The notes under the pieces were generated by a model. It ran no database searches and was not told the DNA's origin. It was given only the letters and a program-made list of their open reading frames with translations. Below are positions 1,184-57,778 of a stretch of 64,000 nt of DNA, one piece after another. This DNA is from Geomonas silvestris (GTDB lineage: Bacteria; Desulfobacterota; Desulfuromonadia; Geobacterales; Geobacteraceae): assembly GCF_014193515.1 (NCBI RefSeq), contig NZ_BLXX01000010.1, positions 1 to 64,000 of the forward strand, read 5' to 3'. The position numbers and the translations under genes are program-made. Each line of letters starts with the position of its first letter. Position 1 is the first letter of the stretch.

Positions 1184-3079
1184 CTACCTCCCGATCCGTT
1201 TCAGCCAGTTTTTGGCCAGGTCGGAATCCGGCTTTTGCTGCAGAACCCGATAAAAACAGTGGGCCGCCTCGTCAAGGCGGTTTTGTTTTGCGAGAAAGAC
1301 ACCCAGGTTGAAATTGACGTCCAGGGAGTTCGGTTCGATGGTCATGGCCTGTCTGAAATAGCCGTCGGCTTCTCCCACCATTCCGGCTGCTGCCAATTCG
1401 ACGGCAATCGTGAGCGGACCCCTTGCAGAGGAAGGCTCCAACTTCTGGACGGCTTCATAATGGGGCCGGGCTTCAGAGCTGCGGCCCGACTTGATCAGCA
1501 GAATTGCCAACTGCAGGTGCGCGTCTGCCGCTGCCGGATCTTGCCTCAGGGCCGCTGCAAACTGCTCCGCAGCCTCGTTCAATCTTCCTGCCTTGGCCAG
1601 CGCTCTGCCGGCATTGACCATCACCATCGGTTCGCCCGGGTCCAGACGCGACGCCTCCCTAAACTGTTCCAACGCCTCAGCGTACCTCCCCTTCGCGAGA
1701 TACATCGTCCCCAGGTTGTTGCGGGTCAGCGCGGAGTTCGGCCAGATGCGCAGGGCCTCCTGGTACGCCGCAAGCGCTCCGTCGGCGTCTCCGTATTCCT
1801 GGTTCAGTGCAATGCCGTAGTTGTTGAGGATGAGGTAGTTATTGCTGGTGACCGCCAGCGTGTGGCGATAGAGGGTGATGTTGTTGCGCCAAAAGCCCAG
1901 CTGCTGCCAGGTCATGACGGCACAGACCGCAAGCGTCAGGACGGAAAGGGCTGCCAGGGCCTTCTCCTTGAACGACAGCGAGCTGCACAGCTCGGAAACA
2001 CCCCAGACCGCGATGATGGAGAGACCGGTATAGGGGAGGTAGGTGTAGCGGTCGGCGTGCGACTGCCCACCGACCTGGATCAGGCCGATCACCGGCAGCA
2101 GGGTAACGACGAACCAGAGCCAACCGGTTGCCAGGTAAGGAAAGCGTCGCCGGAAAAAGAACACCGCAGCGCTGATGGCGATGAGCACCAAAATCGATCC
2201 CGCAAGCTGCCAGAGGATGATTTCGGTCGGAAACGGGTAGAGGATGGCCATGTCGTGAGGCCAGAACATACCGATCAGGTATCTAACGTAGGCTATGAAG
2301 ACGTTGGCCAGGCGCAGGCCGAACTGCACCTTTTCGAGGCTTTGGACCGCACCGCCATGCTGCTGCACGAAGATGGTGGCGGCCGAAGAGAGCAGGGAGA
2401 TGAGAAAGAAGGGGACCTTTTCCAGGAAGAGGTGCCGCGCGGTGCGGGGGGCGGGGGCGGTCTCCGCCTGGTCGCGCCGGAAGCGGTTCAGTGGCCACCA
2501 ATCGAGCAAGAGCAGTACCACCGGAAGGGTCACCAGCATCGGCTTGGCCATCAATCCGAGAACGAAGCAGCCCATGGTCGCCAGGTAGCGCCAGGGCTTG
2601 GGTTTGTGCACGTAAGCTACGTACATGAGCAGGGTCAGATGCCAGAACAGGCCGCTCAGGACGTCTTTGCGCTCCGCCACCCAGGCAACCGACTCCACGT
2701 GCATGGGGTGCAGCGCGAACAGCCCTGCGACGACGAGGCTGCGCCACGGCATCGCGGTAAGGCGGACCAACAGCAGAAACAGCAAAAAGGCAGAGACGGT
2801 GTGCAGCACGACGCTGGTCAGGTGGTGGCCGGCCGGCTTCAGGCCGAACAGCTGCACGTCGGTCATATGGGAAAGCCAGGTGAGGGGATGCCAGTTGGAC
2901 ATCTCGGACGATTGAAGGGCCCAAGCGACGCTGCCGCCGTGCAGCCCCCCCTTCACCACGCTGTTGGCGGTGACGTACCCGGGATCATCGAAGTTTATGA
3001 AATCAAAGCCGGCGGTGCGCGAGAATAGTGCGAGGGTGACAACCAACATCACCAGACAGAGCAGGGTGCTGAGCCGCAT
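1184..3079 (-). CDS. TMTC/PMT-like GT-C glycosyltransferase with six C-terminal TPRs
   Basis: Predicted polytopic inner-membrane enzyme of the GT-C fold, resembling eukaryotic TMTC O-mannosyltransferases. Expected role, by family only: moving a sugar from a polyprenyl-phosphate donor onto an exported protein. Visible signatures are an acidic pair in the first outer loop (NFDDPGY, Asp31-Asp32), HPLTW at 64-68, HPMHVES at 124-130, ERKD at 136-139, AKPMLVTLP near 180 and DRYTYLP at 343-349. Residues about 413-631 form six TPRs, which should face the periplasm. The ATG at 3079 has AAAGGA about 8 bases upstream. It is the last gene of a same-strand run that includes a nine-heme cytochrome and a Sel1 protein. 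The sugar and the target cannot be read from sequence. Confidence 0.9.
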   Translation of the reverse strand: MRLSTLLCLVMLVVTLALFSRTAGFDFINFDDPGYVTANSVVKGGLHGGSVAWALQSSEMSNWHPLTWLSHMTDVQLFGLKPAGHHLTSVVLHTVSAFLLFLLLVRLTAMPWRSLVVAGLFALHPMHVESVAWVAERKDVLSGLFWHLTLLMYVAYVHKPKPWRYLATMGCFVLGLMAKPMLVTLPVVLLLLDWWPLNRFRRDQAETAPAPRTARHLFLEKVPFFLISLLSSAATIFVQQHGGAVQSLEKVQFGLRLANVFIAYVRYLIGMFWPHDMAILYPFPTEIILWQLAGSILVLIAISAAVFFFRRRFPYLATGWLWFVVTLLPVIGLIQVGGQSHADRYTYLPYTGLSIIAVWGVSELCSSLSFKEKALAALSVLTLAVCAVMTWQQLGFWRNNITLYRHTLAVTSNNYLILNNYGIALNQEYGDADGALAAYQEALRIWPNSALTRNNLGTMYLAKGRYAEALEQFREASRLDPGEPMVMVNAGRALAKAGRLNEAAEQFAAALRQDPAAADAHLQLAILLIKSGRSSEARPHYEAVQKLEPSSARGPLTIAVELAAAGMVGEADGYFRQAMTIEPNSLDVNFNLGVFLAKQNRLDEAAHCFYRVLQQKPDSDLAKNWLKRIGR

Positions 3080-3249
3080 GTGTGATCCTTTAGGTGGTAT
3101 GAACGAGGCACCATCTCGGCTGGTGTGTCACGTTACCTGGCAGGTAAGGCAACTTTTCCCGAAGTAATGGATGAACCTGGGCAATGGGGGAGGGGAGGCG
3201 AAGAAATCCCGAGGGGTGCGCGATAGGGTATCGAAGGTGTCGGCTGGTG

Positions 3250-5248: not shown

Positions 5249-7624
5249 TTAGTTGCGTTTGCGGCGCCCTTCCAGGATGGCCAGATTAATGAACGCTACG
5301 GCACCTGCCAGGGTGAGGAGCCAGCCGATCATCACCTCGCGCGGATAGTACTCCATTTCCAGCAGGTGGCGTCCGGAGCTCCAGGGGACCGCCCTGACCA
5401 CATAGTCGGCGCGCCAGATTGGAATCTCCCGGCCATCGAGGCGCGCCTGCCACCCGGGCCAGAAGGAGTCGTTGATGACCAGCACCCCGTCCTGGCCAGC
5501 CTCCGCGTCGATGCGCAGGGTGTTCTCGGTGCGCGCCGCGCTGAGGACCCGCCCCGCCCCCGGATCCCGGGGGACCGAGGTGGCCCCCTCGAGAACGACG
5601 GCGCCGGCGCCCTTGGCGTACGCGGCCAAAAGCCCCTGGAGCGCTGCGTCCTCCCCCGAGGCAGGGAGGAGTTCCCCGGCAAAAAGGGCCCAGGGACGGT
5701 GCGGCACCCTCCAGACCGAGAAGTCCCACTCGGGGTTGTCCAGGACCCTGGTCCCCCCCTCGCTCGCGGCGATGGCGATCTCGGTCTCCTGCGGGGTGTG
5801 CGGGTTCTTGACCACCATGTGGGTCAGCGAGTAGCGCCTGAGGGCCGCCAGGGACCGGGGGCCGAAGCTGCCGTTCAGGGCGCCGATCAGGCTGTCGAAG
5901 CGTTGCGGGCGCAGCCCGGTGTAGGTGTTGATCTGGTCGATGCCGGAGGCGACGTTGTAAGAAGGGGATCCCATGTGCGACTGGCCGCCGACCTGGGCGT
6001 CCAGGAGATCGAGCCCCCTCGGGTAGTAGTAGTTCTCCTCCATCGGTGTGGCGATCCGGGTCTGCTCGCCGTTCACCTTGATGGCGGCCAGAGGGGCGCT
6101 GTCACAGACCCCGGGGTTACCGGCGTGCAGGGCGAACGGTGCCGCCAGGGAGGACTCCAGGAAGACGAGCGCCGCAAGCAGGGGAGGGAGCGCCGGGCGC
6201 AGCCGCGGCCAGCGCAGGCCGGCAGCGATCAGGCCGGCCAGGGCAACGAGGCTCACCCCGGCATGCACAAGCCCGCGGGAGAGGTTGTGGTACGCCTGCA
6301 GAACTCCCTGCTGCGCGGCCGGGGTGTCGACTTGGGCGGCGAAGGAGGGGGAGCGCCAGAAGAAAACCGCGCCGACGAGTGCCAGGGCGCCAAGCCCCCC
6401 GGCAAGGACGGCCCAGCGTCGGTCGGGATTGCCGGCCAGCTGCTGGGCGCCGAACGAGGCAAGCACGGCAAGGCAAAGCGCCAAGGGCCCCACCAGCTTC
6501 TCCGCGTAGCGGAATTTGCCCCAGACCGGCAGGTGATGCAGGAGTTGCTCCGAACCGGCATGAAAGCCAAGCGCAAGCCAGAGGAGAACCAGCGCGGCCC
6601 CCCCCAGAAGAAGTGTCAGCCGTTTCTGCCGCAGACCCGCGACGGCGAGCAGCAGCAGCCCCCCCCCCAGGTAGACGCTCGGCAGGAAGGGCATTTCCAG
6701 TCCCGGCCGGGACATCCCGCCCAGCCAGATGAACACCGGCCACTGGGTGGTCCCAAGGTTCGGGCTGCCGAAAAAGCCGGGCACCAGGAACTCGATGAGC
6801 CGCCAGGGCGCCAGGGCCCAGGTCAGCCGGTCGAAGGGGTCCAACTGCACGCCGCGGGAGGTCTCCTGGAGAAAGACCAGGGTGGGGATCAGCTGCACCG
6901 CGGCCAGGGCGGTACCCACCGCGACCCCGAGAGCCGCCCGGCGAACCCCTGGCCCCCCGCCTGCCTCCCAGGACAGGGCAAAGCCCAAAAGGAGTGCGAC
7001 GATGCTCCACTGGGGGTCGCCGGAGAACCAGAGGGCGCAGCAGGCGAGAGCCGCCGCGGAGGCTCCGAAACGCCGCCCCTCTCCGGCCCGGCGCAGCGCA
7101 GCCAACACCCAGGGGGCGGTTGCGGCGGCGCAGAGGTACTGCACGTTGGAGCTGAGGCCCTGCACGTACCCGGAAAGCCCGTAGCCGAAGCCGGCGATGG
7201 CCGCAGCGGTAAGCGGGGCACCGAGCACGCGGGAGAACAGCGCCGCCCCGAGCGCCGCCAGCGCGAAGTAGCCAAGGATCAGGGCATCCATCCCGGCGTG
7301 CGGGAAGAGGTAGGCACCAAGGAGCGACACCGGGTGGAGGACGCCGTGCATCATCTGGGCGAAAAGCGGGATCCCCAGGATCTCGTGCGGGTTCCAAAGC
7401 GGCAGGTGAAAGCTGCGCAACGCCTCGACGACGGTGGGCCGGATCGGCTGGAAAAGTTTGGAGGTGTCCCGCCAGGAAAGGGTGTACCCGGAGAGGAGGT
7501 AGAGCGCTCCAGGCGAGAGGACCCCGGCGACGATTGCCGCGGCCCAGAGAAGTGCCGGCCTGACCGCGCGCGGTGCAGTGGGCGGGGTGCCCGGATCGGA
7601 AAGCCTCGTCGATTCCCGCAGCAT
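5249..7624 (-). CDS. YfhO-like polytopic membrane protein (GT-C type)
   Basis: 791 residues, mostly hydrophobic segments, with a long C-terminal soluble part after about residue 490 and a final transmembrane segment near 765. The pattern (an early loop with SWRDTSKLFQPIRP, then PLWNPHEILGIPLFAQ, and later FRYAEKLVGPLAL) is that of the YfhO family. Gram-positive YfhO takes part in glycosylating teichoic acids, so a GT-C transferase role is likely but the substrate is unknown. The ATG at 7624 lies one base after the stop of the TMTC-like gene 7626-9467, which implies translational coupling. The gene is strongly GC-rich with long antisense open frames, which I treat as shadows. Confidence 0.88.
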   Translation of the reverse strand: MLRESTRLSDPGTPPTAPRAVRPALLWAAAIVAGVLSPGALYLLSGYTLSWRDTSKLFQPIRPTVVEALRSFHLPLWNPHEILGIPLFAQMMHGVLHPVSLLGAYLFPHAGMDALILGYFALAALGAALFSRVLGAPLTAAAIAGFGYGLSGYVQGLSSNVQYLCAAATAPWVLAALRRAGEGRRFGASAAALACCALWFSGDPQWSIVALLLGFALSWEAGGGPGVRRAALGVAVGTALAAVQLIPTLVFLQETSRGVQLDPFDRLTWALAPWRLIEFLVPGFFGSPNLGTTQWPVFIWLGGMSRPGLEMPFLPSVYLGGGLLLLAVAGLRQKRLTLLLGGAALVLLWLALGFHAGSEQLLHHLPVWGKFRYAEKLVGPLALCLAVLASFGAQQLAGNPDRRWAVLAGGLGALALVGAVFFWRSPSFAAQVDTPAAQQGVLQAYHNLSRGLVHAGVSLVALAGLIAAGLRWPRLRPALPPLLAALVFLESSLAAPFALHAGNPGVCDSAPLAAIKVNGEQTRIATPMEENYYYPRGLDLLDAQVGGQSHMGSPSYNVASGIDQINTYTGLRPQRFDSLIGALNGSFGPRSLAALRRYSLTHMVVKNPHTPQETEIAIAASEGGTRVLDNPEWDFSVWRVPHRPWALFAGELLPASGEDAALQGLLAAYAKGAGAVVLEGATSVPRDPGAGRVLSAARTENTLRIDAEAGQDGVLVINDSFWPGWQARLDGREIPIWRADYVVRAVPWSSGRHLLEMEYYPREVMIGWLLTLAGAVAFINLAILEGRRKRN

Positions 7625-7625
7625 G

Positions 7626-9467
7626 TCAGTTCTTCCCGGGGCCGGCCTTCATGCTGCGGACGCTCTCGAGGTTGCGCCTCGCGTTGGCGTTCTCGGGGTT
7701 GAGTTGCACCGCGCGTTCGAACTCTCTGAGCGCGTCGGCAGGGCGGCCGGATTTCAGGTAGGCGATCGCCAGGTTGTTGTGCAGCTCGTCGTAATCGGGG
7801 ATGATCTGCAGACACTTCTCGTAGTAGCGCAGCGCCGAGGCGATATCGCCCTGTGCCAGGTAGGCGTTGGCCAGGTTGAAAATCGACATGGGGTCGCCGG
7901 GGTTTAACTGGGAGGCCTTGGTGTACTCGCCGATGGCGTTTGGGTAGTCACCCAGCTTCTTGTAGACGATCCCCAGGTTGTTGTGCAGCTCGAAGTTGTT
8001 GGGATCGATCGCCAGGGCGGCGCTCAGTTCCTTTTTCGCCTCGTCCAGACGCCCGGCGGCACTTAAGTAGAGACCCAGGTTCTGGTGCGGGCGCAGCTTC
8101 TTGGGGCTGTTCTTGGCGGAGTCTTCCCAAAGCGAGATCTCTGTTTGCCACACCCGGTTTCTCGAGAAGGTCGCCACGGCGAGGACCAGGACCAGCACCC
8201 CGAAGAGGCCGGCGAAGAGCCTGATGCCGGCGGTCGTCCCCAGCGTGAGCCGGGCTGCCAGGTGGGAGAGGGCGGTCACCGCGAGGAAGAGCCCGAAGGA
8301 GGGGAGGTACACCCGGTACTCGGCGCCCAGCTCCCCCAGCGGCAGGATGCTCGATTCGACGGAGAGCGTGACGAAGAACCAGAGGATGCCGAAGCCGGCA
8401 AGCCTCAGCTCGGGGAACTCGCGGAGCCTGCCGCTCAGGTAGTAGCAGAAAAGGCCGGTGAGGAAAATGGCGACCAGCAGCAGGAAACAGCCGAAAACCG
8501 GGAGTGCGAACAGGGTGTGGTATTTGGTGAAGTCGTGGTCCACGTTTTGGTGGATCGGCAGGAACAGGAGCCGCAGGTAGTCGGTGATGACCCCGAACTG
8601 GGTGAGCAGGTAGTCGCCCCGGGAGATCTTCGAGACGTCTGCGGCGGTGATGGTGCGCATGGTGCTGTCCAGCGCGCCCAGCTGCCCCTGCTGGAGGAAT
8701 ACCAGGATCGGGATGATGCACAGGGTGGCGGCAAAGGGTGCCAGGGCCTTCAGGCGAGCCTTGAGCCCCCGGTCCAGAAAGGTGAAATCGTACAGGGCTA
8801 CGATGAAGGGGAGGGTGAAGCTGAACTCCTTGCTCAGCATCGAGCCGACGGTGCTGGCCAGGGCAAGTCCGTACCAGAGGGCGCGCTTGCCGGCGGGCTC
8901 GGTCTGGGACTTCAGGTAGCAGAAAAGGGCCAGCAGGTAGCCGCAGGACGCCATCAAGAGGAAGCGCGAGGTGATGTAGGTGACGGCATGGGTCTGCATC
9001 GGGTGCACGACGAAGAACAGCGCCGTAGCGGCGGCGATCGCCTCCGGGTAGCCCGCGCGGGAGTCGTCCCCCCTTGGCGCGCAGCGCTCCAGTTCCAGGG
9101 TGTAGCGCGCGATCAGGTACACCAGGTAGCCGTTAAAAAGGTGCAGCGCCAGGTTGACGACGTGGTACCCCACCACGTTCAGGCCGTGCAGCTTGAAGTT
9201 CAGCGCCAGGGTGAAATAGCCGAGGATCCTGGTCATGAAGGCGAACTGCAGGGCGGGTGGGAGCGAGGTGGGGGAGAGCTTTTCTATCTTGAAGATATCG
9301 AGGGGGGAAAAGAAGTAATGGAAGGTCCGTATGATGGAGTTGGTCGCCACGTAGGACTCGTCGTCGAACTGGAAGGGGACCGTGAAGGAATTGGAGTAGG
9401 CCAGCACCCCCAGGACTACAATCAACGATGCCATCACATACTTATTGCCGCAGATGCTCTTGTACAT
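7626..9467 (-). CDS. TMTC-like GT-C glycosyltransferase with TPRs, divergent subtype
   Basis: 613 residues: about ten membrane segments, then TPRs from about residue 470 to 600 (repeated NLG..Y..LG..PNAIGEY units). The acidic pair is in FQFDDESYV (Asp35-Asp36). The usual D/E-R-x-x-Y-L-P signature is altered to EYRVYLPSFG, so this is the most diverged of the nine copies here. The histidine-rich loop is kept as HPMQTHAVTYITSRF. The ATG at 9467 has AAGGAA nine bases upstream. It lies between a GT2 gene (29-base gap) and the YfhO-like gene (1-base gap), so the three are probably one transcript and could make and use a lipid-linked sugar together. Confidence 0.9.
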   Translation of the reverse strand: MYKSICGNKYVMASLIVVLGVLAYSNSFTVPFQFDDESYVATNSIIRTFHYFFSPLDIFKIEKLSPTSLPPALQFAFMTRILGYFTLALNFKLHGLNVVGYHVVNLALHLFNGYLVYLIARYTLELERCAPRGDDSRAGYPEAIAAATALFFVVHPMQTHAVTYITSRFLLMASCGYLLALFCYLKSQTEPAGKRALWYGLALASTVGSMLSKEFSFTLPFIVALYDFTFLDRGLKARLKALAPFAATLCIIPILVFLQQGQLGALDSTMRTITAADVSKISRGDYLLTQFGVITDYLRLLFLPIHQNVDHDFTKYHTLFALPVFGCFLLLVAIFLTGLFCYYLSGRLREFPELRLAGFGILWFFVTLSVESSILPLGELGAEYRVYLPSFGLFLAVTALSHLAARLTLGTTAGIRLFAGLFGVLVLVLAVATFSRNRVWQTEISLWEDSAKNSPKKLRPHQNLGLYLSAAGRLDEAKKELSAALAIDPNNFELHNNLGIVYKKLGDYPNAIGEYTKASQLNPGDPMSIFNLANAYLAQGDIASALRYYEKCLQIIPDYDELHNNLAIAYLKSGRPADALREFERAVQLNPENANARRNLESVRSMKAGPGKN

Positions 9468-9496: not shown

Positions 9497-10180
9497 CTAG
9501 CGGAACAGGTTGTATTTAACGATGCATTTCAGGGCCGAGAAGCCGTCTTTCCAGCCGATCTTCTTTCCTTCCTTGTAGGTCCTTCCCGCGTAGGAGATGC
9601 CGATCTCGTAGATGCGCAGGTCCATCTTGGCTATCTTCGCGGTGATCTCGGGCTCGAAGCCGAAGCGGTTTTCCTCGATCCGGATCCCGTCAAGCACCTC
9701 GCGCCGGAACACCTTGTAGCAGGTCTCCATGTCGGTCAGGTTCAGGTTGGTCATCATGTTGGATAAAAGCGTGAGGAACTTGTTGCCGACCATGTGCCAG
9801 AAAAAGAGCACGCGCCGATATTCGCCGGTACAGAACCGGGAGCCGTAGACCACGTCCGCCTTCCCCTCGAGGATCGGCTGCACGAGCTTGTGGTACTGGC
9901 CGGGATCGTACTCGAGGTCGGCGTCCTGGATGATGACGATGTCGCCGGTCACGTTCTGAAAGCCGGTCCTGAGCGCCGCGCCCTTCCCCTGGTTGCGGTC
10001 GTGCAGGACGACGCGGGTGTTGCCGCCGGCCAGCTCGGCCAGGATCTCGCGGGTGCCGTCCGTGGAGTAGTCGTCGACCAGGACGATTTCCTTGTCGATG
10101 TCCACCGCCTGAACGGCGTGGTAGATCTCCCTGATGGTCCCCTTTTCGTTGTAGATCGGGATGACGACGGACAGTTTCAT
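9497..10180 (-). CDS. GT2 glycosyltransferase, soluble Dpm1-like polyprenyl-phosphate sugar synthase
   Basis: 227 residues starting [14 protein letters not shown]. The ATG at 10180 is chosen over upstream in-frame codons because AAAGGA lies eight bases before it and the GT2 fold begins at once. Catalytic-site motifs are visible: [20 protein letters not shown] and the metal/donor loop [11 protein letters not shown]. There is no C-terminal transmembrane pair, as in the soluble Dpm1 class that makes dolichyl- or undecaprenyl-phosphate-mannose/glucose in the cytosol. It precedes a TMTC-like and a YfhO-like enzyme on the same strand, which fits supplying their lipid-linked donor. The sugar identity is not predictable. 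Confidence 0.92.
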
Positions 10181-10510
10181 GAAGGACGTCCTTTGGATGT
10201 TGTGATTCGCGCCGTGGCTGCGGCGGCGGTCCGGTTGCCGCACCGCCGGAAAAGCCCGCGGCTTCGGGCCAGGCAGGGCATTTGCCGACAGCGAGGAGTA
10301 CCACAAGCTGTCCAAAAGGTCAACTCGCCCGAGCAGGACCAGGCGAGGCGGAACTGTCATAAAGCTTGCGCGGATATCTACTCTTAAGGTATATTCCGAC
10401 GCACTTGTGCCTCAGGCCAAGGACCCCGCTGGACGCCCCCGGCACGCGCCCCCCCCGAACGGGCCGGCCGCGCCCGGACGACGCGGATTGCAAGGTGAAA
10501 GGTTGTTACC
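10181..10510. other. Divergent intergenic region
   Basis: 330 bases between the minus-strand GT2 gene and the plus-strand TMTC-like gene, so it should hold promoters for both. A plausible plus-strand promoter is listed separately. For the minus strand only a weak TTGACC near 10318-10323 was seen, without a good -10. The stretch 10420-10490 is very GC-rich and carries no recognised element. Confidence 0.55.
10366..10395 (+). promoter_or_regulatory. Possible sigma-70-type promoter for the 10.5 kb TMTC-like gene
   Basis: TTGCGC at 10366-10371 and TATATT at 10390-10395 with an 18-base spacer, about 115 bases before the GTG start at 10511. The -10 is good and the -35 is partial. Confidence 0.45.
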
Positions 10511-12202
10511 GTGACCAGCACAGCACGCCTCCTGAAAACCCCCGGAATCAGAACCTTTCTACAACTCTTCACGCTGGTGCTGGTCTGTTTTGCCGTATTC
10601 GGCCCGGCATTGCGCCACGATTTCCTGATCAACTGGGACGACCGCCAGTACGTACTGGACAACCCCCTGATCCAGGGCCTCAGTCTGGAGCACCTGCGGG
10701 GCGCCTTCACCACGTTCCACCTCGGCAACTACGCTCCGCTGCATCTCATGTCGTACATGCTCGACTACGAGCTTTGGGGGATGAAGTCCTTCGGGTTCAT
10801 CCTCGGCAACCTCATCATTCACGCCGTGAACGGTGTGCTCTTCTACCTGCTGCTGCGGCGCCTGGCCGGGGAAAAGGTGTGGATCTTCGCCGCCGCGCTC
10901 CTTTTCCTGGTCCATCCGGTTCAGGTCGAGTCGGTGGTCTGGATCTCGGAGCGCAAGAACCTGCTCTCCATGACCTTCTTCCTGGTCTCCTGGTACTGCT
11001 ACCTCCGCTACCGGAGCCCGGAGCCGGGGCGCGGCGCAACCTTCTACGGGGTGTCGCTCTTCGCCTTCGTCCTGGCGCTCTTGACGAAGTCGGTGACGGT
11101 CGTCCTCCCCTTGGTGCTTCTCCTGCATGAGCTCTGCTACGGCGAGAAGCGGCAGGGGAGGGGGGCGCTTATCGACAAGATCCCCTATTTTCTGGTGGCG
11201 GCCCTTTTTGCCGTGCTCGCCCTGAAAAGCCACGCCGCGGCCCAGGGGGGGATCACCTCCTTTCATGGCGGAAGCCCCACCGCCACCTTCCTCACCATGC
11301 TCACGGTGCTGACGCACTACCTGGGTTTCTTGGCCTGGCCGGCGCAGCTGAGCGCCTTCTACGACGTACAGCTTAAACCCGCAGTGGACCAGCAGGTGGC
11401 CCTGGCCGCACTGTGCTGTCTTGCGCTTTTGGTCCTCGGTTTCCTGGTCTATCGCCGCAGGCGGAAGCTCTTTTTCTGGTACGCCCTCTTCTTCGTCGGG
11501 CTGATCCCGGTCTCCCAGATCGTGCCGATCGTCACCTTGATGAACGACCGCTACCTCTACTTCCCGATGCTCGGAGCGGCGGCCTTTGTATGTGCCGCAC
11601 TGCTGGGAGAGGCGAGTTTGGAGGGGGGGGTCGCCTCGCGCCGCTCGCTGGCGACGCTGGTGCTCATCCTGGTGGCGACCGGGGGCTTCGCCGCTGCCGC
11701 CAGCGCCAGGGTCCCGGTATGGCAGGACAGCTACACGCTTTGGAAGGATGCCAGCGCGAAGGCTCCCAGGCTCGCGCTTACCCACGACGCCTACGGCGAG
11801 GGGCTGCTGCAGCGCGGCCGGTTCGACGAGGCCATCAACGAGTTCCAGATGGCCCTGAGCCTGGAGCGTATCGGTGCGCAGAAGAGCCAGGATCCGAACT
11901 GGCGCACCACCTGGGCGAACACGCGCAACAACCTGGGGACCGCCTACGGCATGAAGGGGTGGACCGACCAGGCGATCGACCAGTTCGTCATCGCCCTGAA
12001 GCTGGATCCGGACCTCGCCAAGGCCCACTTCAATCTGGGGAACGCGCTGATGAACAAGGGACAGGCCGAGGCGGCGCTGCGCTCGTTCAGCAGCGCGGTG
12101 CGCCTGAACCCCGGTAACCTCGCTTTCCAGGCGAACCTCCGCCAGACGCGCGAGATCGTGGAGTCGAGAGCGCCCCAGGGGATGCCAGGCGGGCCGAACT
12201 AG
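10511..12202 (+). CDS. TMTC-like GT-C glycosyltransferase with TPRs
   Basis: 563 residues. The first outer loop carries INWDDRQYVLDNP (Asp43-Asp44). HPVQVESVVWISERKN and NDRYLYFP are the other conserved loops, followed by about three TPRs (about residues 415-555). It starts with GTG at 10511; AAGG lies eight bases upstream and no in-frame ATG precedes the first membrane segment. Its acidic loop and ERKN variant place it between the NFDDPGY group (1184-3079, 20584-22497) and the VWDD group (13302, 15858). It is the first gene of the plus-strand half of the glycosyltransferase island. Confidence 0.9.
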   Translation: MTSTARLLKTPGIRTFLQLFTLVLVCFAVFGPALRHDFLINWDDRQYVLDNPLIQGLSLEHLRGAFTTFHLGNYAPLHLMSYMLDYELWGMKSFGFILGNLIIHAVNGVLFYLLLRRLAGEKVWIFAAALLFLVHPVQVESVVWISERKNLLSMTFFLVSWYCYLRYRSPEPGRGATFYGVSLFAFVLALLTKSVTVVLPLVLLLHELCYGEKRQGRGALIDKIPYFLVAALFAVLALKSHAAAQGGITSFHGGSPTATFLTMLTVLTHYLGFLAWPAQLSAFYDVQLKPAVDQQVALAALCCLALLVLGFLVYRRRRKLFFWYALFFVGLIPVSQIVPIVTLMNDRYLYFPMLGAAAFVCAALLGEASLEGGVASRRSLATLVLILVATGGFAAAASARVPVWQDSYTLWKDASAKAPRLALTHDAYGEGLLQRGRFDEAINEFQMALSLERIGAQKSQDPNWRTTWANTRNNLGTAYGMKGWTDQAIDQFVIALKLDPDLAKAHFNLGNALMNKGQAEAALRSFSSAVRLNPGNLAFQANLRQTREIVESRAPQGMPGGPN

Positions 12203-15012: not shown

Positions 15013-15750
15013 ATGCTGAACGGGAAAAAAATTATCGTAGTCATGCCGGCCTACAACGCGGAAAAGACCCTGGAAAAAACCTACAACGAGATCCCGATGG
15101 AGATCGTCGACGAGGTGGTGCTGGTGGACGACGCCAGCCGCGACCGGACCTCGGAGATCTCGAGGCTGATCGGGATCCACACCATCGTGCACTCCAACAA
15201 CAAAGGGTACGGCGGGAACCAGAAGAGCTGCTACAAGGCGGCCCTCGACCTGGGCGCGGACATCGTCATCATGGTGCACCCCGACTACCAGTACACGCCG
15301 AAGCTGATCCCGGCCATGGCCTCCATGCTCGCCTACGACGAGTTCGACGCGGTGCTCGCCTCGCGCATCCTGGGGACCGGCGCCCTCGAGGGGGGGATGC
15401 CGCTCTACAAGTACATCGCCAACCGGGCCCTGACCCTGTTCGAAAACCTGATGCTCAGCCAGAAACTCTCCGAGTACCACACCGGCTACCGGGCCTTTAC
15501 CCGCAAGGTACTGGAGGAGTTGCCGCTGGACCGCAACTCCGACGACTTCGTCTTCGACAACCAGATGCTGGCCCAGATCACCTACTTCGGTTACCGGATC
15601 GGCGAGATCACCTGCCCCACCAAGTACTTCGAGGATGCCTCGTCCATCAACTTTAAGCGCAGCGTCATCTACGGCCTGGGCGTTTTGAAGACCTCCCTGC
15701 AGTACCGTCTGCACAAGTGGGGCATCGCTAGTTCGTCGATTTTCTCTTAA
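15013..15750 (+). CDS. GT2 glycosyltransferase with HPD in place of the usual DxD loop
   Basis: 245 residues. The N-terminal GT2 fold is clear ([34 protein letters not shown]). Where Dpm1 relatives have a DxD metal site, this protein has [10 protein letters not shown]. No transmembrane helices follow. By family it is a cytosolic lipid-phosphate sugar synthase or chain-extending transferase. The ATG at 15013 has GGAG five bases upstream. It sits between two TMTC-like genes of the same subtype, suggesting that the three act in one pathway. Confidence 0.88.
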
Positions 15751-15857
15751 AAAAGGGAGTCGAGTTCGCCGGGCCAATCTGCAAGGTGGGCAACCATAGT
15801 TGCGTGTGCCCTCGCGCTCAAACTGCCTGACAAAGACGTACACGGGGAATGTGTGGC

Positions 15858-36957: not shown

Positions 36958-36974
36958 CCATGAGGAGCTATACA

Positions 36975-38255: not shown

Positions 38256-38262
38256 TTCTTTT

Positions 38263-48790: not shown

Positions 48791-49050
48791 TCCACGCCGC
48801 GGGCGCCCCTCCGGGCAATGGCCGGGGCCGCAAGGTAGGCTGAATCAAGAGGAAAAAGAAGGGCGCAGCGCTTCCGGGTGGCCCCGGACGGCAGCGGTAG
48901 GAACGAAGTCTACAAGCCGGTAGCCTTACCGTGAATTTTGAAGTATGTTATGGGTCGGTTTCGAAGCGGGAACCGAGCGATTGTTGCAGGGCAGACAGGG
49001 CGATATCCGATTCGCCTGCGTTGCCCACTAAACCTGGTGCGAGGCCGAAG

Positions 49051-50016
49051 GTGACTACTGGCGGGTGCAAGCAAACGGTCAGCGTGATAGTACCGTGCTA
49101 CAACGAGCGTGAAACGATCGCTGAGTTTTACCGGAGAATGACCGGGGTCGCCGACCGGGCTGGAACGTACGACTTCGAGATCATCTTTGTCAACGACGGG
49201 AGCCGGGACGATACCGCCCTGCGGCTGAACGAGCTCTCCGAGCGCGACGCTCGGGTGAAGGTCGTGCACCTGGCCCGCAACATGGGGCACCAGATCGCGA
49301 TCACCGCGGGGATGGATTTCGCCGGCGGCGACCTGGTGGTCATCATCGATGCCGACCTGCAGGACCCCCCCGAAGAGATCCCCGGCATGCTGGCGAAGCT
49401 GGAGGAGGGGTTCGACCTGGTGCACGCCCAGCGCAAGCGGCGCGACGGCGAGAGCCCGTTCAAGCTCGCCACCGCCTGGCTTTTCTACAAGCTGATGCGC
49501 CGGTTCTCCACCCGGGAGATCGTCGACAACTGCGGCGATTTCCGCGCCTTCAATAGCAAGGTGCTCAAGGTGGTGCGCACGTTCCGGGAGCGCCACCGCT
49601 TCATGCGCGGCATCTTCGCCATCATCGGCTTCAGGCAGTGCATCATCCAGTACGACCGGGACCGCCGCTACGCAGGCGAGACCAAGTACCCGTTCCGCAA
49701 GATGCTGAGCCTGGCCATCAACGCCGTCCTCAGTTTTTCCTCAAGCCCCATCCGGTTCATCACCTGGGCGTCCTTCACCCTTTGGGGGATAAGCCTCATC
49801 TACCTCATCAAGGCGCTCCTCGATCACTTCGTCTTCAAGGTGACGGTCCCCGGCTGGACCTCGATCATCATCCTGATGACCTTCTACAACGGCATCATCC
49901 TCTTCAGTATCGGCATCATCGGCTCGTACGTCGGCAGGTCCTTCGAGCAGTCCCAGGGAAGGCCGCTCTACTGGGTGGGCGACACCAGGAACATCGACCG
50001 GGGTGAGGACGCATGA
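49051..50016 (+). CDS. GT2 polyprenyl-phosphate glycosyltransferase with two C-terminal membrane helices
   Basis: 321 residues from GTG 49051, chosen because GAGG lies six bases upstream and the GT2 fold begins ten residues on; a GTG at 48931 is in frame but would add 40 unlikely residues. Motifs: VSVIVPCYNERETI, IIFVNDGSRDD, ARNMGHQIAITAGM and VVIIDADLQDPPEE. Two hydrophobic helices near the C-terminus (about 230-300) place it with GtrB/ArnC-type enzymes that load a sugar onto undecaprenyl phosphate at the inner membrane. It overlaps the TMTC-like gene by four bases (ATGA). About 260 bases upstream contain no recognised promoter. Confidence 0.9.
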   Translation: MTTGGCKQTVSVIVPCYNERETIAEFYRRMTGVADRAGTYDFEIIFVNDGSRDDTALRLNELSERDARVKVVHLARNMGHQIAITAGMDFAGGDLVVIIDADLQDPPEEIPGMLAKLEEGFDLVHAQRKRRDGESPFKLATAWLFYKLMRRFSTREIVDNCGDFRAFNSKVLKVVRTFRERHRFMRGIFAIIGFRQCIIQYDRDRRYAGETKYPFRKMLSLAINAVLSFSSSPIRFITWASFTLWGISLIYLIKALLDHFVFKVTVPGWTSIIILMTFYNGIILFSIGIIGSYVGRSFEQSQGRPLYWVGDTRNIDRGEDA

Positions 50017-51746
50017 GCTCAACGGCGCATGCCACCCTCCGCCCCCGTCTGGTCCTCGCCCTGATCCTCGTCGCGGCCGCCTGCCTCGCCTACGCGAACA
50101 CGCTGGCCAACGGGTTCGTCTACGACGACGAGTTCCAGGTGCTCAAGAACCCGTGGATCCGGGACTTCCGCAACCTCCCCGCCATCTTCTCGAGCGAGGT
50201 CTGGGGCTTCAAGGGAAGTTCCATCTCCAACTACTACCGGCCGCTTTTGCACGTGGCCTACCTGGTGGGGTACCACCTCTTTGGCCTCGCGGCCTGGGGC
50301 TACCATGCCATAAACCTCCTCTTGCACGCGGTGGCGACCCTCCTGGTCTACCTCCTTGCCGAGACCGTGCTCTCCAGGGAGACTGCCGGCGCGCCTTCCG
50401 GGGCGTACTCCTTCCCGGCGCTGGCGGCGGCGCTCATCTTCGCGGTCCACCCGATCCACACCGAGGTCGTGGCGCCGGTCATGAGCGTGACCGACCTGCT
50501 CCTGACCGTCAGCTACGTCTCGGCGCTCTACCTGCACCTGCGCTTTGCCGAGCGCCCCTGGTACTTCAACCTCGTTCCGGCGGGGTTGTTCGGCCTGGCG
50601 CTCCTTTCCAAGGAGATCGGCATCACGCTGCCGCTGGTACTTATTGCCGGCGATTTCCTCCTCGCGCAGCGGCGGGCGCCCTTGGCCAGGTTGGCGGCGC
50701 GCCACGCCCCCTACCTGGTCGTTGCCCTGGCCTACCTGGCGGTCCGGGGGAGCGTGCTCGGCGCCTTCGCCCCCATCAACCGGCATCCCGACCTCTCGGG
50801 TTTCCAGTTGATCCTCAACATCTTCCCGCTTGCCGTCCAGTACGGTTTCAAGCTGCTGCTGCCGGTGGACCTCAACGCCATGTACGAGTTCCACCCGGTG
50901 AAGTCGCTCGCCGAACCGCGCGCCTACCTTTCCGTCGGCGCCGTGGCGGCTGCGGCGTGGCTTTGCCCGGCCGGCGCCCGGAGGTCGAAGACGGTCGCCT
51001 TCGGGGTGGTGCTGACCGTGGTTCCGCTGCTTCCGGCCTTCTACATCCGCGCTATTCCGTACCCGTTCGCCGAACGCTACCTCTACCTCCCCTCGGTCGG
51101 CGCGGTCCTGGTCCTCGCGGGCCTTTTGGCCCGGTACGCGCGGCAGCCGAAGCTGCTCCGGACGCTGCAGGTCGCCCTGGCCGTGGTCGCCTGCTGCTAC
51201 CTGGCCGGAACCGTCCGGCGCAACGCCGTCTGGAAGGACAACTACACCCTGTGGTCCGACACCGTGTTGAAATCCCCGGGCAACGCCGTGGTGCACAACA
51301 ACCTGGGCGAGGCGCTCAGGGTGATGGGGAGGCTGCCGGAGGCGATCGCCCAACTGCGCCAGGCGGCGGAACTGGACCCGCACACCGAGTACTTCCGGCA
51401 CCTGGGGAACGCCTACTACGAAGCCGGAGACAAAACCGAGGCGGCCCGCCAGTACGAGAAGGCGGTCACCCTGGAACCGGCGAACCCGATGGCCCACAAC
51501 GATCTCGGTTCACTCTACGCGGAGCTTGGAAACTTCGGGCAGTCCATCGTGCACCTGGAAGCTGCCGTGCGCCTCGACCCTGCCCAGGCCGACAGCCACT
51601 TCAACCTGGGGTTGGTCTACCGCGACACCGGCAGGATAGACCCGGCGCTCGCGCAGTTCGAGGCGGCGCTGCGCCTGAACCCCAACGAACCCGCCTACCG
51701 TGCCGCGCTGGCCGAAGCCTACGCCGTGAAGCAAAGGAGCAGATAA
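50013..51746 (+). CDS. TMTC-like GT-C glycosyltransferase with TPRs (YDDE subtype)
   Basis: 577 residues. The acidic loop is FVYDDEFQVLKNP (Asp38-Asp39). NYYRPLLHVAYLVGY, HPIHTEVVAPVMSVTD, SKEIGITLP and AERYLYLP follow, then about four TPRs (430-570). The HPIHTEV..VTD loop departs from the SARN and ERKD forms of the other copies. The ATG overlaps the GT2 stop by four bases, and the PIG-V-like gene starts directly after its TAA. This is the tightest enzyme set in the island and the best candidate for one donor-transferase pathway. Confidence 0.91.
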   Translation: MSSTAHATLRPRLVLALILVAAACLAYANTLANGFVYDDEFQVLKNPWIRDFRNLPAIFSSEVWGFKGSSISNYYRPLLHVAYLVGYHLFGLAAWGYHAINLLLHAVATLLVYLLAETVLSRETAGAPSGAYSFPALAAALIFAVHPIHTEVVAPVMSVTDLLLTVSYVSALYLHLRFAERPWYFNLVPAGLFGLALLSKEIGITLPLVLIAGDFLLAQRRAPLARLAARHAPYLVVALAYLAVRGSVLGAFAPINRHPDLSGFQLILNIFPLAVQYGFKLLLPVDLNAMYEFHPVKSLAEPRAYLSVGAVAAAAWLCPAGARRSKTVAFGVVLTVVPLLPAFYIRAIPYPFAERYLYLPSVGAVLVLAGLLARYARQPKLLRTLQVALAVVACCYLAGTVRRNAVWKDNYTLWSDTVLKSPGNAVVHNNLGEALRVMGRLPEAIAQLRQAAELDPHTEYFRHLGNAYYEAGDKTEAARQYEKAVTLEPANPMAHNDLGSLYAELGNFGQSIVHLEAAVRLDPAQADSHFNLGLVYRDTGRIDPALAQFEAALRLNPNEPAYRAALAEAYAVKQRSR

Positions 51747-52889
51747 GTGATCGGAAGGGCCCTGAATCCTCGCGTCAAGAAGCTCGTCGTGATCACCTTG
51801 CTGGTCAAGCTCGCCGTACTCGGCCTGATAGGCGCGAGCACGTACCTCGTGCCGTTTTCTTTCACCGGGCACGACGTGAACTTCGTGTACCCGATCGGCG
51901 AACCGGCCTACTGGGCCTCCGCCTTCAAAACCTGGGATGCCAACCACTACCTCTACCTGGCCGACAACTGGTACTCCCCGTTCCACATCGGCAACGCCTT
52001 CTACCCGCTACTCCCCTTCCTGATCCGGGTGGCGGGGTACCTCGCCCTGGGGCACAACCTGGTTGCGGGACTCGCGGTCTCCACGCTCTGCACGGTCCTC
52101 TCGGTGGTGTACCTTTTCCGGCTGGTGGCAACGACGCACGACGAGGAGGTCGCCTTCCGGAGCTGCCTCATCCTGCTCGCCTTCCCGACCAGTTTTTACA
52201 TCGGCCTGGTGTACACCGAGTCGGTCTTCCTCATGCTGGCGACCATGCTCCTTTACTATCTGAAGGAGAACCGGAGCGCGCCGGCGCTCGCCTGTGCCTT
52301 CCTGCTCCCCTTGACCCGCCCCACCGGGATACTGGTCGTCGTCCCGGTGCTCGTCGCCCTGTTTTTCGAGCTGCGCGCCCAAGGGAAACTCGACCCCAAG
52401 AAGCTGCTGGTACCGTTCGGATTCCTGGCGGGGTACGGGAGCTACCTCTTGGTGATGCTGCTCGCGACCGGCGACGCCTTTGCCGGCTTCGACGCCCAGA
52501 AGGTATTCCAGGCAAGCAACTCGCTGCTCAACATGCTGCATCCGGTGAACTGGTTTCTCTCCAACTTCGTCTACACGGAGTTCACCTTGAACGGCTTCAC
52601 CACGAGCATCGTGAACCGGGTGTTCTTCGTGGTCTACGCCGTGATCGCGGCGCTCTCCTACCGGAAACTGGACAAGACCCAGTTCGCCTACCTCTTGATT
52701 ACCGGCCTGGTTCCGGCCCTGACCGGCAGCCTCACCTCGTACGTGCGTTACCTCGTCATCGTGTTCCCCATTTTCGTCTACCTGGCGCTCACGCTGAGGG
52801 GAAAAACGGTGTTGTTCTATCTGGTTCCTTGCTCTATCCTTCAGGTCGCCGGCGTTTTGCTGCACGCCTCGAACAGGTGGGTCGCCTGA
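51747..52889 (+). CDS. PIG-V-like (GT-C) mannosyltransferase family membrane protein
   Basis: 380 residues, starting GTG immediately after the previous TAA. There are about eight to nine membrane segments. The outer-loop signature FKTWDANHYLYLADN followed by FYPLLPFLIR matches the PIG-V/GPI-mannosyltransferase-II-like bacterial family, in which the W-D-x-x-x-Y acid is catalytic. It would add a second sugar, probably mannose, from a lipid-phosphate donor; this is inferred from family and operon. LTRPTG in the middle is also typical. It ends the 49.0-52.9 kb cassette. Confidence 0.88.
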   Translation: MIGRALNPRVKKLVVITLLVKLAVLGLIGASTYLVPFSFTGHDVNFVYPIGEPAYWASAFKTWDANHYLYLADNWYSPFHIGNAFYPLLPFLIRVAGYLALGHNLVAGLAVSTLCTVLSVVYLFRLVATTHDEEVAFRSCLILLAFPTSFYIGLVYTESVFLMLATMLLYYLKENRSAPALACAFLLPLTRPTGILVVVPVLVALFFELRAQGKLDPKKLLVPFGFLAGYGSYLLVMLLATGDAFAGFDAQKVFQASNSLLNMLHPVNWFLSNFVYTEFTLNGFTTSIVNRVFFVVYAVIAALSYRKLDKTQFAYLLITGLVPALTGSLTSYVRYLVIVFPIFVYLALTLRGKTVLFYLVPCSILQVAGVLLHASNRWVA

Positions 52890-55889: not shown

Positions 55890-56053
55890 ACCTGCTCCTC
55901 GTTTTCAAAATGGTGATGGGCCCATCCATACTGTCATCGGTAACGCTGCAGCGTCATCCTTAGATGGCGTTGCCTGCGGAGCACCGTGCCGTAACCAGAT
56001 CTGCGGCAGCAACTACCTTTGGCGGCAGCTGCCTGGTACCTGCAAGGCTCTTC

Positions 56054-57778
56054 TCAACGGGCAAACTTGGCGAGCATCTTCTGCGCCATCTTCTCGTCGA
56101 CTCCGGAGAGCATCCGGTACATCTCGTTTGCGCCGGCGGTATCTCCGGCTCTGAAGAGCGACATGCCGAGGTAGTACATGGTCTCAGGATCCCCGGGCTT
56201 GATCCGCAGCGCCTGCCGGAAATAGTCCGCCGCCTGGCGAAAATCGCCCAGGTTCCCCGCTACCGATCCCAGGTTGGAGATGGCGTTGAAGTAGTCCGGG
56301 CGGAGTTCCAGCGCGCGCTTGAAGCACGCCACCGCCTTGCCATAGTCCCCCTTGCTGGCATAGGCGATCCCCATGGTCTGCCACCCCTCGGGGAAGGTCG
56401 GCAGGATCCGGGTGGCCTGCTCTCCGGCCGCGATCGCGTCGTCGAACGATCCCGCCTCGATCTTGGCGTCCGCGAGTCCCTGCCACGCCTTCCAGTTCCG
56501 CTCCGTTACCGCTAGCGAGCGCTCGTGGAGCGTGACGCTGTCCCGCCAGTAGCCTGCCTGCTGGTGCGCCACGACTGCCAAAACGCTCACCAGTATTCCT
56601 GCCGCCGCCAAGGTTGCCCAATGCGGCAGGCGCACGCGCTCGACCAGTTCTGCTCCCCCGAATACCAGGCTGACGAAGACGCCGATGAGGGGAAGGTAGC
56701 TGTAGCGATCCGCCATTGCCTGCCCGCCAACCTGGATGATCCCGATGACCGGCAAGAGCATCACCAGGTACCAGATCCATCCCCAGAGCAGATAGGGGCG
56801 GCGGCGCCTCTCCCGGATGCAGAAATAGGAGATGAGGAGCAGGCAGCAAACCGCGACTGCCAGACGACCCAGGGGGAGGTCCGGGCTGACCGTAGCGGGG
56901 TGGGGGTAAAAGGAGGCGAGCGACACCGGCCAGAGCGTTTTCTGCAGGTATCCGATGACCGCGATCGCCGCGTTGGTCAGGCGGGGCACCAGGGGGATCG
57001 GCGACATGGCGCTCGCCCCGCCGCCGGAAGCCTGTGCCAGGAAGGTGACGATAGCCGTCGCCGCGGAGATAAGCAGAAACGGCAGCTTCGTCAGGATCAG
57101 GCGCCGGTAGCGACCGTGCTGCGTTTCCTGCGCCGGGGTGGCTGCGGAATCGAGCGGCCACCAGTCGAGGATCAAAAGGACCACCGGGAGCGTGATCACC
57201 ATTGGCTTACTGAGGATGCCCAGGGCGAAGAAGCCGATACTGGCGAGGTAGCTGCGGTACGACTCGGTGCGGGAAAAGGTCACATAGGAGTTGAGGCAGA
57301 GCAGGAAGAAGAGGGCGCTCAGGACGTCTTTTCGTTCCGAGATCCAGGCCACCGACTCGACGTGCAGGGGGTGAATGGCGAAAAGGGCTGCGACGAGGAC
57401 GCTGCGCCAGGTGTCCTTAAAAAGCCGCCGCAGCAACACAAAGAGAACCCCGCAGTTGACGGCGTGAAAAAGCAGGTTGACCAGATGTTGCGGACCGGGC
57501 GCGGGGCCGAACAGGGAGACGTCCAGCATGTGAGAAAGCCAGGTCAGCGGGTGCCAGTTCGAGGCGTGGAAACCGCTGAAGGCCCACTTGGCGCCCGCAG
57601 CCGTAAGCCCCTTAAGGGTCATGGCATTTTGGTAAACATAGATGCTGTCGTCCAGATTGACGAAGCCGAAATGACGGACCTGGAAGAAGACCGCCAGGTT
57701 TGCCACGGTAAGCAGGGCCACGACAACCCAGGTCGGCAGGTAGGGCGCTGCTTGTCGGTCCTGCTTAAGCACGTTCAT
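56054..57778 (-). CDS. TMTC-like GT-C glycosyltransferase with TPRs
   Basis: 574 residues. The acidic loop is FVNLDDSIYVYQN (Asp43-Asp44), with NWHPLTWLSHM, HPLHVESVAWISERKD, SKPMVITLP and ADRYSYLP. It belongs to the ERKD subtype with the 1184, 20584 and 42652 proteins. Four TPRs lie at about 430-560. The ATG at 57778 has AAAGGA nine bases upstream. It is the only TMTC-like copy near the giant repeat protein, which lies upstream on the same strand but behind a terminator. Confidence 0.9.
   Translation of the reverse strand: MNVLKQDRQAAPYLPTWVVVALLTVANLAVFFQVRHFGFVNLDDSIYVYQNAMTLKGLTAAGAKWAFSGFHASNWHPLTWLSHMLDVSLFGPAPGPQHLVNLLFHAVNCGVLFVLLRRLFKDTWRSVLVAALFAIHPLHVESVAWISERKDVLSALFFLLCLNSYVTFSRTESYRSYLASIGFFALGILSKPMVITLPVVLLILDWWPLDSAATPAQETQHGRYRRLILTKLPFLLISAATAIVTFLAQASGGGASAMSPIPLVPRLTNAAIAVIGYLQKTLWPVSLASFYPHPATVSPDLPLGRLAVAVCCLLLISYFCIRERRRRPYLLWGWIWYLVMLLPVIGIIQVGGQAMADRYSYLPLIGVFVSLVFGGAELVERVRLPHWATLAAAGILVSVLAVVAHQQAGYWRDSVTLHERSLAVTERNWKAWQGLADAKIEAGSFDDAIAAGEQATRILPTFPEGWQTMGIAYASKGDYGKAVACFKRALELRPDYFNAISNLGSVAGNLGDFRQAADYFRQALRIKPGDPETMYYLGMSLFRAGDTAGANEMYRMLSGVDEKMAQKMLAKFAR

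Follow-up and report, generated by a model that had tools for sequence, protein, structure and literature searches.

A candidate TMTC-like protein O-glycosylation module beside OmcS nanowire genes in Geomonas silvestris

Why do nine related glycosyltransferase genes lie among multiheme cytochrome genes on a single stretch of bacterial DNA? The question is raised by the window analysed here, the first 64 kb of contig C10 (NZ_BLXX01000010.1) of Geomonas silvestris, whose 5.1 Mb genome is available in 36 contigs. An earlier note on this DNA had compared nine GT-C-type membrane proteins ending in tetratricopeptide repeats (TPRs) with the eukaryotic TMTC enzymes, and had read them as an O-glycosylation system for exported cytochromes or other surface proteins. 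Here, we observe that several old enzyme types, together with donor genes, are bound to one clade of the nanowire cytochrome OmcS. Judged from the sequence, the region may encode a periplasmic, TMTC-like module for protein O-glycosylation that serves the OmcS nanowires, a reading that we prefer and in which our belief and our doubt are evenly balanced.

Nine GT-C/TPR proteins and their GT2 neighbours

The genes that carry the argument are listed below with the evidence for each. In the text, genes and proteins are named by their first position, and subfamily letters refer to the tree described in this section.

1184..3079, minus strand: TMTC-like GT-C/TPR protein, subfamily A (A1); Pfam TPRs, DD, WHPL, ERKD, KPMLVTL and DRYTYLP, tree
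7626..9467, minus strand: TMTC-like GT-C/TPR protein, subfamily D; Pfam TPRs, tree, co-occurrence, synteny
9497..10360, minus strand: GT2a, polyprenyl-phosphate-sugar synthase-like; 5mlz DPM synthase 1.1e-20, ArnC 2.1e-18
10511..12202, plus strand: TMTC-like GT-C/TPR protein, subfamily B; Pfam TPRs, tree, motif residues
13302..14930, plus strand: TMTC-like GT-C/TPR protein, subfamily C (C1); model resembling STT3, Pmt4 and ArnT, tree, co-occurrence
15013..15750, plus strand: GT2b, polyprenyl-phosphate-sugar synthase-like, between two subfamily C genes; 5mlz 1.3e-8
15849..17468, plus strand: TMTC-like GT-C/TPR protein, subfamily C (C2); PMT_2 31.9 bits (cut-off 26.1), tree
20584..22497, plus strand: TMTC-like GT-C/TPR protein, subfamily A (A2), directly preceding NHL1 and OmcS; model, STT3 match, synteny
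22584..23561, plus strand: beta-propeller protein, labelled NHL1, conserved before OmcS; Pfam SBBP and DUF5128
24411..25730, plus strand: OmcS homologue, six CxxCH; phmmer to 6ef8/6nef OmcS 2.2e-130
26197..27516, plus strand: second OmcS homologue, six CxxCH; phmmer to 6ef8 1.5e-120
36..566, plus strand: third OmcS copy, C-terminal part, 3 CxxCH; 90% identity to residues 253-439 of the 24411 protein
42652..44424, plus strand: TMTC-like GT-C/TPR protein, subfamily A (A3); Pfam TPRs, tree
48931..50016, plus strand: GT2c, GtrB-type polyprenyl-phosphate-sugar synthase; 5ekp sll0501 6.5e-74, ArnC 7.8e-44
50013..51746, plus strand: TMTC-like GT-C/TPR protein, subfamily E; Pfam TPRs, tree
56054..57778, minus strand: TMTC-like GT-C/TPR protein, looser member of subfamily A (A4); PMT_2 32.7 bits, tree

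All nine GT-C/TPR genes are long open reading frames (ORFs) with codon bias, at the coordinates given before, and Pfam finds C-terminal TPRs in 9/9, as the earlier note had claimed. Whole-protein scans with Pfam and NCBIfam return mostly TPR rows, and PMT_2 exceeds its cut-off in two of the nine (15849 and 56054). AlphaFold models of two proteins are confident, with a predicted local distance difference test (pLDDT) of 89.2 for 20584-22497 and 85.8 for 13302-14930. Residues ~8-420 of the latter align with STT3 8agb (Z 23.6, 329 aligned residues, root-mean-square deviation 4.3), and further matches are AglB 3waj (Z 22.5), Pmt4 9i5l (22.1), ArnT 5f15 (22.0) and PglB 3rce (20.4). Pmt1-Pmt2 and ALG12 also align with its membrane part, all matches lying at Z ~20-23.6 over ~315-345 residues. 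The membrane part of 20584-22497 matches STT3 with Z 20.4 over 327 residues; the Foldseek and VIA lists for this protein consist mostly of TPR rows. By the fold of their models, both proteins are GT-C enzymes. This assignment rests on two models, since a search of PDB sequences with a profile of all nine rows gives no match up to E 1. No TMTC-named entry occurs among the structure matches listed for the two models, which excludes nothing.

The shared motifs stand largely as first described, with 7626 as the main deviant. The acidic pair reads DD in 9/9, and HP as well as the K of the K-x-x-x-x-TLP-like motif are likewise invariant (9/9). HPxxxE and [DE]RxxYxP occur in 8/9 each, 7626 having HPMQTH and EYRVYLP, and ERKD, ERKN or SARN in 7/9 (SVTD in 50013, SRFL in 7626). 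Conservation was also counted in 101 GT-C domains, namely the window's nine and domains from the fetched loci; of 103 that passed the thresholds (E 1e-15, 280 model positions), two were removed as duplicates, and the domain of L089 was left out because of its split match. D41, H102 and K187 are kept in 101, D42, H133, P134 and Y345 in 100, and R146 in 98 domains.

Placed from the model on the nine sequences, the topology comprises 11 membrane helices with the N-terminus inside. Helix 248-270 of 13302 was taken as lying on the membrane, after the published TMTC scheme, and the loop charges agree. In 9/9 proteins, predicted inside loops have a K+R density of 0.16-0.29 and outside loops one of 0.05-0.08, with loop limits set from the model. 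From modelled helices and charge bias, the DD loop and the TPRs are thus predicted to face the periplasm, which corresponds to the layout published for TMTCs.

In a quick maximum-likelihood tree built from these 101 domains, the nine proteins fall into approximately five deep groups: A (1184, 20584, 42652 and, less tightly, 56054), B (10511), C (13302, 15849), D (7626) and E (50013). Identity amounts to 44-57% within A and 40% within C; between groups it is 22-31%, on which ground recent tandem duplication was rejected as the sole origin of the nine. Rows near OmcS form exclusive clades in A (11 rows), C (9) and D (6). Since genes away from OmcS are incompletely sampled, 34 of 98 inner branches are open, and the near-OmcS label also covers G017 contig C4 and the gene at C10:81414 (54 kb off), our case rests on co-occurrence rather than on tree clades. 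A profile search of the whole genome yields 14 GT-C matches, 12 of them above 100 bits. Nine of these 12 fall into the window and a tenth lies at C10:81414; with nine of 12 in 64 kb of a 5.1 Mb genome, the clustering is not due to chance.

The best solved relatives of the three GT2 genes are GtrB (GT2c), an archaeal DPM synthase (GT2a) and DPM synthase (GT2b). All three resemble polyprenyl-phosphate-sugar synthases, the makers of the donors that GT-C enzymes need. In all three cases a TMTC-like gene of the same strand overlaps or is at most 98 bp away: GT2c shares 4 bp with 50013, GT2a lies 29 bp before 7626, and GT2b, placed between 13302 and 15849, is separated from the former by 82 bp and from the latter by 98 bp.

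Association with one clade of OmcS

The window contains two complete OmcS homologues and a fragment of a third. Both full copies show full-length similarity to OmcS (6ef8/6nef), and the window OmcS shares 94% identity with its counterpart in Geomonas limicola. The contig begins inside the third copy (window 3-566) and OmcS is also located at contig ends in G008, G017 and G027, so that OmcS repeats seem to break assemblies. According to the accessible part of the source, OmcS and OmcE filaments of Geobacter sulfurreducens are glycosylated, with differing surface glycosylation, and OmcZ is without it (PMC9473688); glycosylation of OmcE also appears in the accessible part of PMC11077965. The searchable text on the sugars of OmcS and OmcE nanowires names no responsible enzyme, and the titles and abstract openings of the open-licence papers listed by literature searches contain nothing linking TMTC-like genes with cytochrome glycosylation.

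Among 141 genomes of the order, eight (G000, G006, G008, G009, G014, G015, G017 and G151) have a best OmcS copy of at least 74% identity, the next best reaching 65-66%. Subfamily D scores at least 545 bits in exactly these eight and at most 286 elsewhere. Subfamily C scores at least 519 bits in the same eight and in G027 (OmcS 65%), and at most 372 elsewhere. The subfamily profiles were built partly from module genomes, which raises the scores there; we judge the gaps of C and D to be too wide for this bias alone. In this survey of TMTC-like genes and omcS, which the earlier note had proposed, subfamily D thus tracks the closest OmcS exactly and C nearly so. Because seven of the eight genomes belong to one genus, few events stand behind the pattern. 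G151 belongs to another family, and its OmcS is 75% identical to that of this genus versus 65-66% for the copies of its own genus. A 7-kb stretch of its contig C12 carries A, D, GT2a and C, arranged as in G017 (where two extra genes lie between), with OmcS on contig C7 and GT2b on C6. G129, G139 and G140, from the genus of G151 (OmcS 65-66%), are without C and D at these scores. From its sequence, the GT-C set of G151 looks as if it had been transferred together.

Conservation of gene order points in the same direction as far as the fetched DNA extends. The succession methyltransferase, C, (spermine-synthase protein), A, NHL1, OmcS, OmcS2, beta-propeller, 762-aa protein, LpoB, lipoprotein and peptidyl-prolyl isomerase (PPIase) is kept in G006 (Citrifermentans bremense, L036), G009, G014, G015 and G. 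limicola (L035). Downstream of its OmcS genes, G027 has methyltransferase, C, GT2b and A as one group; contigs C4 and C1 of G017 start with NHL1 and OmcS, respectively, and the set was probably split by assembly there. GT-Cs within 20 kb of an OmcS-like gene amount to 8/12 in our genome and in G008, 4/6 in G006, 3/5 in G009, 3/7 in G014, 3/6 in G015, 2/4 in G027 and 0/7 in G017, the totals being the matches listed with the weakest positions left out. In our genome, the DNA within 20 kb of OmcS-like genes, which holds these 8/12, covers ~1.7% of the sequence. The earlier note had taken a frequency near cytochromes no higher than elsewhere as a refutation of its reading; around OmcS in this lineage this is not what we find, and for multiheme cytochromes in general the excess is weak, as shown below.

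GT2b is 83-86% identical in six module genomes, and in G151 74% identical and at another place. Outside the nine module genomes, GT2a occurs within 10 kb of a listed GT-C at 9/51 places (0.56 expected) and GT2b at 6/69 (0.75 expected), with GT-C lists cut at set E-values and an expectation that takes genomes of 4 Mb. The donor genes are therefore tied to TMTC-like genes independently of cytochromes.

Farther away, at least 80 OmcS loci were collected from 84,980 species genomes, with flanks of up to 10 kb per side and often shorter. GT-Cs are present in the flanks of 6/80 listed loci. For the 49 loci with whole-genome GT-C counts, six with a GT-C compare with 1.4 expected (P 0.002); without five Geomonas and Citrifermentans rows, 4/44 compare with 1.2 (P 0.03). 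All four far loci have the GT-C on the strand of OmcS and no more than 5 kb away, a limit picked after seeing them (0.37 expected, P 0.0004). In L040, a deltaproteobacterial metagenome-assembled genome (MAG), a subfamily B gene stands between OmcS and a beta-propeller gene. Two GT-Cs precede NHL1-OmcS in L043 (Nitrospiraceae Ngb-4), where the tree pairs one with 50013 and puts the other into the sister group of D, and a GT-C of this sister group precedes NHL1-OmcS in L044 (Myxococcales MAG). In L089, a Nitrospirae MAG, a GT-C with 56054 as best window match (29%) ends ~65 bp ahead of an OmcS-like gene, provided that the latter starts at its first ATG. Considering these four arrangements, differing GT-C groups occupy like places. 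OmcS-like genes (L039-L114) were also seen in records titled Nitrospirae, Acidobacteria, Rokubacteria, Krumholzibacteriia, Zixiibacteriota, Calditrichaeota and others.

For multiheme genes at large, an ORF with at least four CxxCH was found in 16/40 regions around GT-Cs chosen without regard to OmcS versus 18/80 controls (one-sided p 0.038, uncorrected for relatedness). The first 20 controls had given 2/20, after which 60 random ones were added, mostly on contigs that hold a GT-C; 5/80 control regions hold a GT-C themselves. This is only a hint of a general link between TMTC-like and multiheme genes. Other GT-C clades were observed beside large multiheme ORFs with 20 CxxCH (L135, L138, L149, L154), 9 (L130-L132), 27 (L133) and 4 (L143, L148).

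Putative pathway and competing explanations

If the region acts as a protein glycosylation module, its GT2 enzymes would, by homology, load undecaprenyl phosphate with a hexose at the cytoplasmic face, and the lipid-linked sugar would then be flipped across the membrane. The TMTC-like GT-Cs, with their predicted periplasmic DD loop and TPRs, would transfer the sugar from the lipid phosphate to Ser/Thr of exported acceptor proteins, which the TPRs may hold. Linkage, co-occurrence and the glycosylation reported for OmcS and OmcE suggest OmcS-type filament cytochromes and/or partner outer-membrane and surface proteins as clients. By their Ser+Thr content, the OmcS copies (0.191 and 0.200), the 762-aa protein 28944 (0.238) and the long repeat protein 58108 (0.240) are likely clients, the median of 37 window proteins being 0.115. 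Of the cytochrome O-glycosylation put forward in the earlier note, the GT-C fold, the predicted topology, the donor genes, the link to an OmcS clade and, from the accessible part of PMC9473688, the sugars on OmcS and OmcE speak in its favour, and the assignment to the TMTC family proper is not supported; Ser/Thr as acceptor, cytochromes rather than other exported proteins as clients, and separate subtypes for separate targets stay conjectural. A more far-reaching version, which we put forward tentatively and regard as rather doubtful, is a multi-enzyme TMTC-like pathway devoted to extracellular cytochrome nanowires, whose ancient GT-C subfamilies, along with lipid-linked-sugar synthases of their own, would have been recruited into OmcS operons repeatedly and across phyla, each enzyme coating its own sites or partners and thereby tuning insulation, export or bundling.

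Several observations weigh against a module that serves OmcS. In available flanks, 74/80 listed OmcS loci show no GT-C, and in G001 (0/5), G010 (0/6), G012 (0/7), G013 (0/2) and G020 (0/4) none of the GT-Cs comes as close as 20 kb to an OmcS-like gene. No module is evident in G. sulfurreducens, because GSU2505-GSU2508, the neighbours of its omcS (GSU2504), are annotated as hypothetical protein, sigma-54 regulator, histidine kinase and TPR protein. G151 and G017 have OmcS and the GT-C set on separate contigs, so adjacency is not seen there. Subfamily A is without a clean gap (678 bits in module genomes, 610 in others), and GT2a and GT2b, present in 55/141 and 76/141 genomes of the order, are not specific to the module. 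Ser+Thr of OmcS is no higher in module genomes (0.169-0.198, n=6) than elsewhere (0.176-0.202, n=4). The GT-C family is also common without OmcS: all 30 genomes counted have members, G023 has 23 copies and no OmcS match, and L034 (G023:C13:30001-50000) comprises seven TMTC-like genes in 20 kb with zero multiheme ORFs, so that the family must have other roles. Finally, the TMTC domain PF08409 (TMTC_DUF1736) was not detected in the genome, where the best hit reaches 12.6 bits (E 0.6, cut-off 27) inside 15849-17468, and hmmscan of the nine membrane parts gives no PF08409 up to E 10. Membership of the TMTC family in its strict sense is thus unsupported, and we call the nine proteins TMTC-like and keep them out of the family.

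Protein glycosylation may be real and its clients no cytochromes, a reading we think unlikely, though it deserves serious attention. Partner or surface proteins such as 28944 and 58108 exceed OmcS in Ser+Thr content and stand far above the window median, the repeat gene has 56054-57778 downstream of it on its own strand, and most listed OmcS loci are without a GT-C in the available flanks, as said above. Against this stand the published sugars on OmcS and OmcE of G. sulfurreducens (accessible part of PMC9473688) and the ~65 bp spacing in L089, given its first-ATG start. That the GT-Cs instead decorate lipid A, O-antigen or another surface polysaccharide in the manner of ArnT or Gtr, the region being a general surface-chemistry island, is improbable in our estimate. 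ArnT belongs to the top structural matches (Z 22.0) and GT2c is GtrB-type, a kind of donor enzyme known to serve O-antigen and lipid A modification. C-terminal TPRs, present in 9/9 and absent from ArnT, argue against this role, as do the specific co-occurrence with a single OmcS clade and the Pfam matches of 35/46 picked window ORFs, among which no wzx, wzy or lipopolysaccharide (LPS) gene occurs.

A neighbourhood without function, in which a copy-rich family settled by omcS in the Geomonas-Citrifermentans line and was then inherited or moved along, seems very improbable to us. It would fit the small number of events implied by seven subfamily D genomes out of eight in one genus, the weak enrichment near multiheme genes at large, and the modest excess outside this group (4/44 loci versus 1.2 expected, P 0.03). 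It would leave unaccounted for that approximately five old subfamilies meet at one locus and remain there, that G151, from another family, has A, D, GT2a and C on one contig and a 75% identical OmcS on another, and that GT-Cs lie inside or adjoining OmcS operons in four far genomes. Coming back to the glycosylation of nanowires, the nine GT-Cs are candidates for the enzymes that add sugars to them, and the locus provides a short gene list for nanowire glycosylation, from which phylogeny favours subfamilies C, D and A first. If the wires are the clients, their sugar coats would become a genetic handle on insulation and assembly.

Further genes of the window and comparison with known systems

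The remaining features of the window are given below.

starts 4405: multiheme ORF, 9 CxxCH; motif count
5249..7624, minus strand: YfhO-like membrane protein, weak (PF09586 24.9 bits, below the cut-off of 28.5), 1 bp after the subfamily D gene
12311..13255, plus strand: class I methyltransferase, kept in the module; Pfam Methyltransf_23, synteny
17554..20526, plus strand: membrane protein with spermine-synthase domain (Pfam), inside the module, also in G. limicola and G014
27532..39168, plus strand: gene run after OmcS (Pfam, conserved order, spacing), with beta-propeller, 762-aa Ser/Thr-rich protein (28944), LpoB-like, lipoprotein-like, PPIase, cytochromes and NHL-repeat protein
starts 34981, plus strand: multiheme ORF, 26 CxxCH, in this gene run
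starts 36960, plus strand: multiheme ORF, 16 CxxCH, in this gene run
starts 44738, plus strand: multiheme ORF, 13 CxxCH; motif count
starts 47552, plus strand: multiheme ORF, 8 CxxCH; motif count
51747..52889, plus strand: PMT_2-like membrane protein (PF13231 31.8 bits, cut-off 26.1), zero gap after the subfamily E gene

Counting CxxCH in ORFs confirms the eight cytochrome genes announced earlier. The number of 14 glycosyltransferase-type genes also holds, made up of nine GT-C, three GT2, one PMT_2-like and one weak YfhO-like gene; the supposed PIG-V-like gene, 51747, is PMT_2-like and without a PIG-V match (E 0.001), and the YfhO match stays below its cut-off. The cytochromes with 13 and 8 CxxCH (44738-48790, plus strand) flank two further proteins, one with TPRs (46123) and one of thioredoxin-TPR type (46663); the set is also present in G014 and, except for 46123, which is not listed there, in G017. 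At 58108-63993 on the minus strand, a very long Ser/Thr-rich protein (0.240) consists of ~74-aa repeats encoded in a 222-bp tandem array and starts beyond the window; the GT-C gene 56054-57778 is located 329 bp downstream of it on the same strand. Matches of the repeat protein to MlaC, MlaD and ThiI of Pfam were taken as noise from the repeats. Rfam and tRNA scans of the window gave no matches.

Compared with OmcS of G. sulfurreducens, whose filament is glycosylated according to the accessible part of PMC9473688, the window copies are full-length relatives with six CxxCH, and the neighbouring genes differ. GtrB, ArnC and archaeal DPM synthase are the best solved-structure relatives of all three GT2s, although the match of 15013 is weak. 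A glycosylated 16-haem cytochrome has reportedly also been described in Desulfovibrio gigas.

ArnT, the PMT enzymes (Pmt1/2, Pmt4) and STT3/PglB/AglB, which use a lipid-linked donor at the outer face, have their fold in common with the modelled window protein over ~320-345 residues (Z ~20-23.6). Identity in the listed alignments is 8-15%, and the window proteins differ by their TPR tail.

Animal TMTCs are enzymes that O-mannosylate proteins and form family GT105. The window enzymes are bacterial, and a loop-4 DW occurs in only 1/9 of them (15849). Of the TMTC motifs in the accessible part of PMC7801869, namely M1 DD, M2 RP, M3 RxD, M4 KE(T/Q)xxT, M5 DW and M7 ERxxY, the nine proteins have M1 in 9/9, the P of M2 in 9/9 (RP in 3/9, the position reading RP, HP or AP), the R of M3 in 8/9 (RxD 4/9), the K of M4 in 9/9 (KE 4/9), M5 in 1/9 and [DE]RxxY of M7 in 8/9. 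In matching order and in corresponding loops, they largely share with TMTC1-4 as described there DD together with xP-L or xP-V (first outer loop), R (loop 2), K(E) (loop 3) and [DE]RxxY (loop 5); by prediction, they also have 11 membrane helices with non-cytoplasmic C-terminal TPRs. Should the nanowires prove to be the clients, a bacterial counterpart of TMTC O-mannosylation would come within reach.

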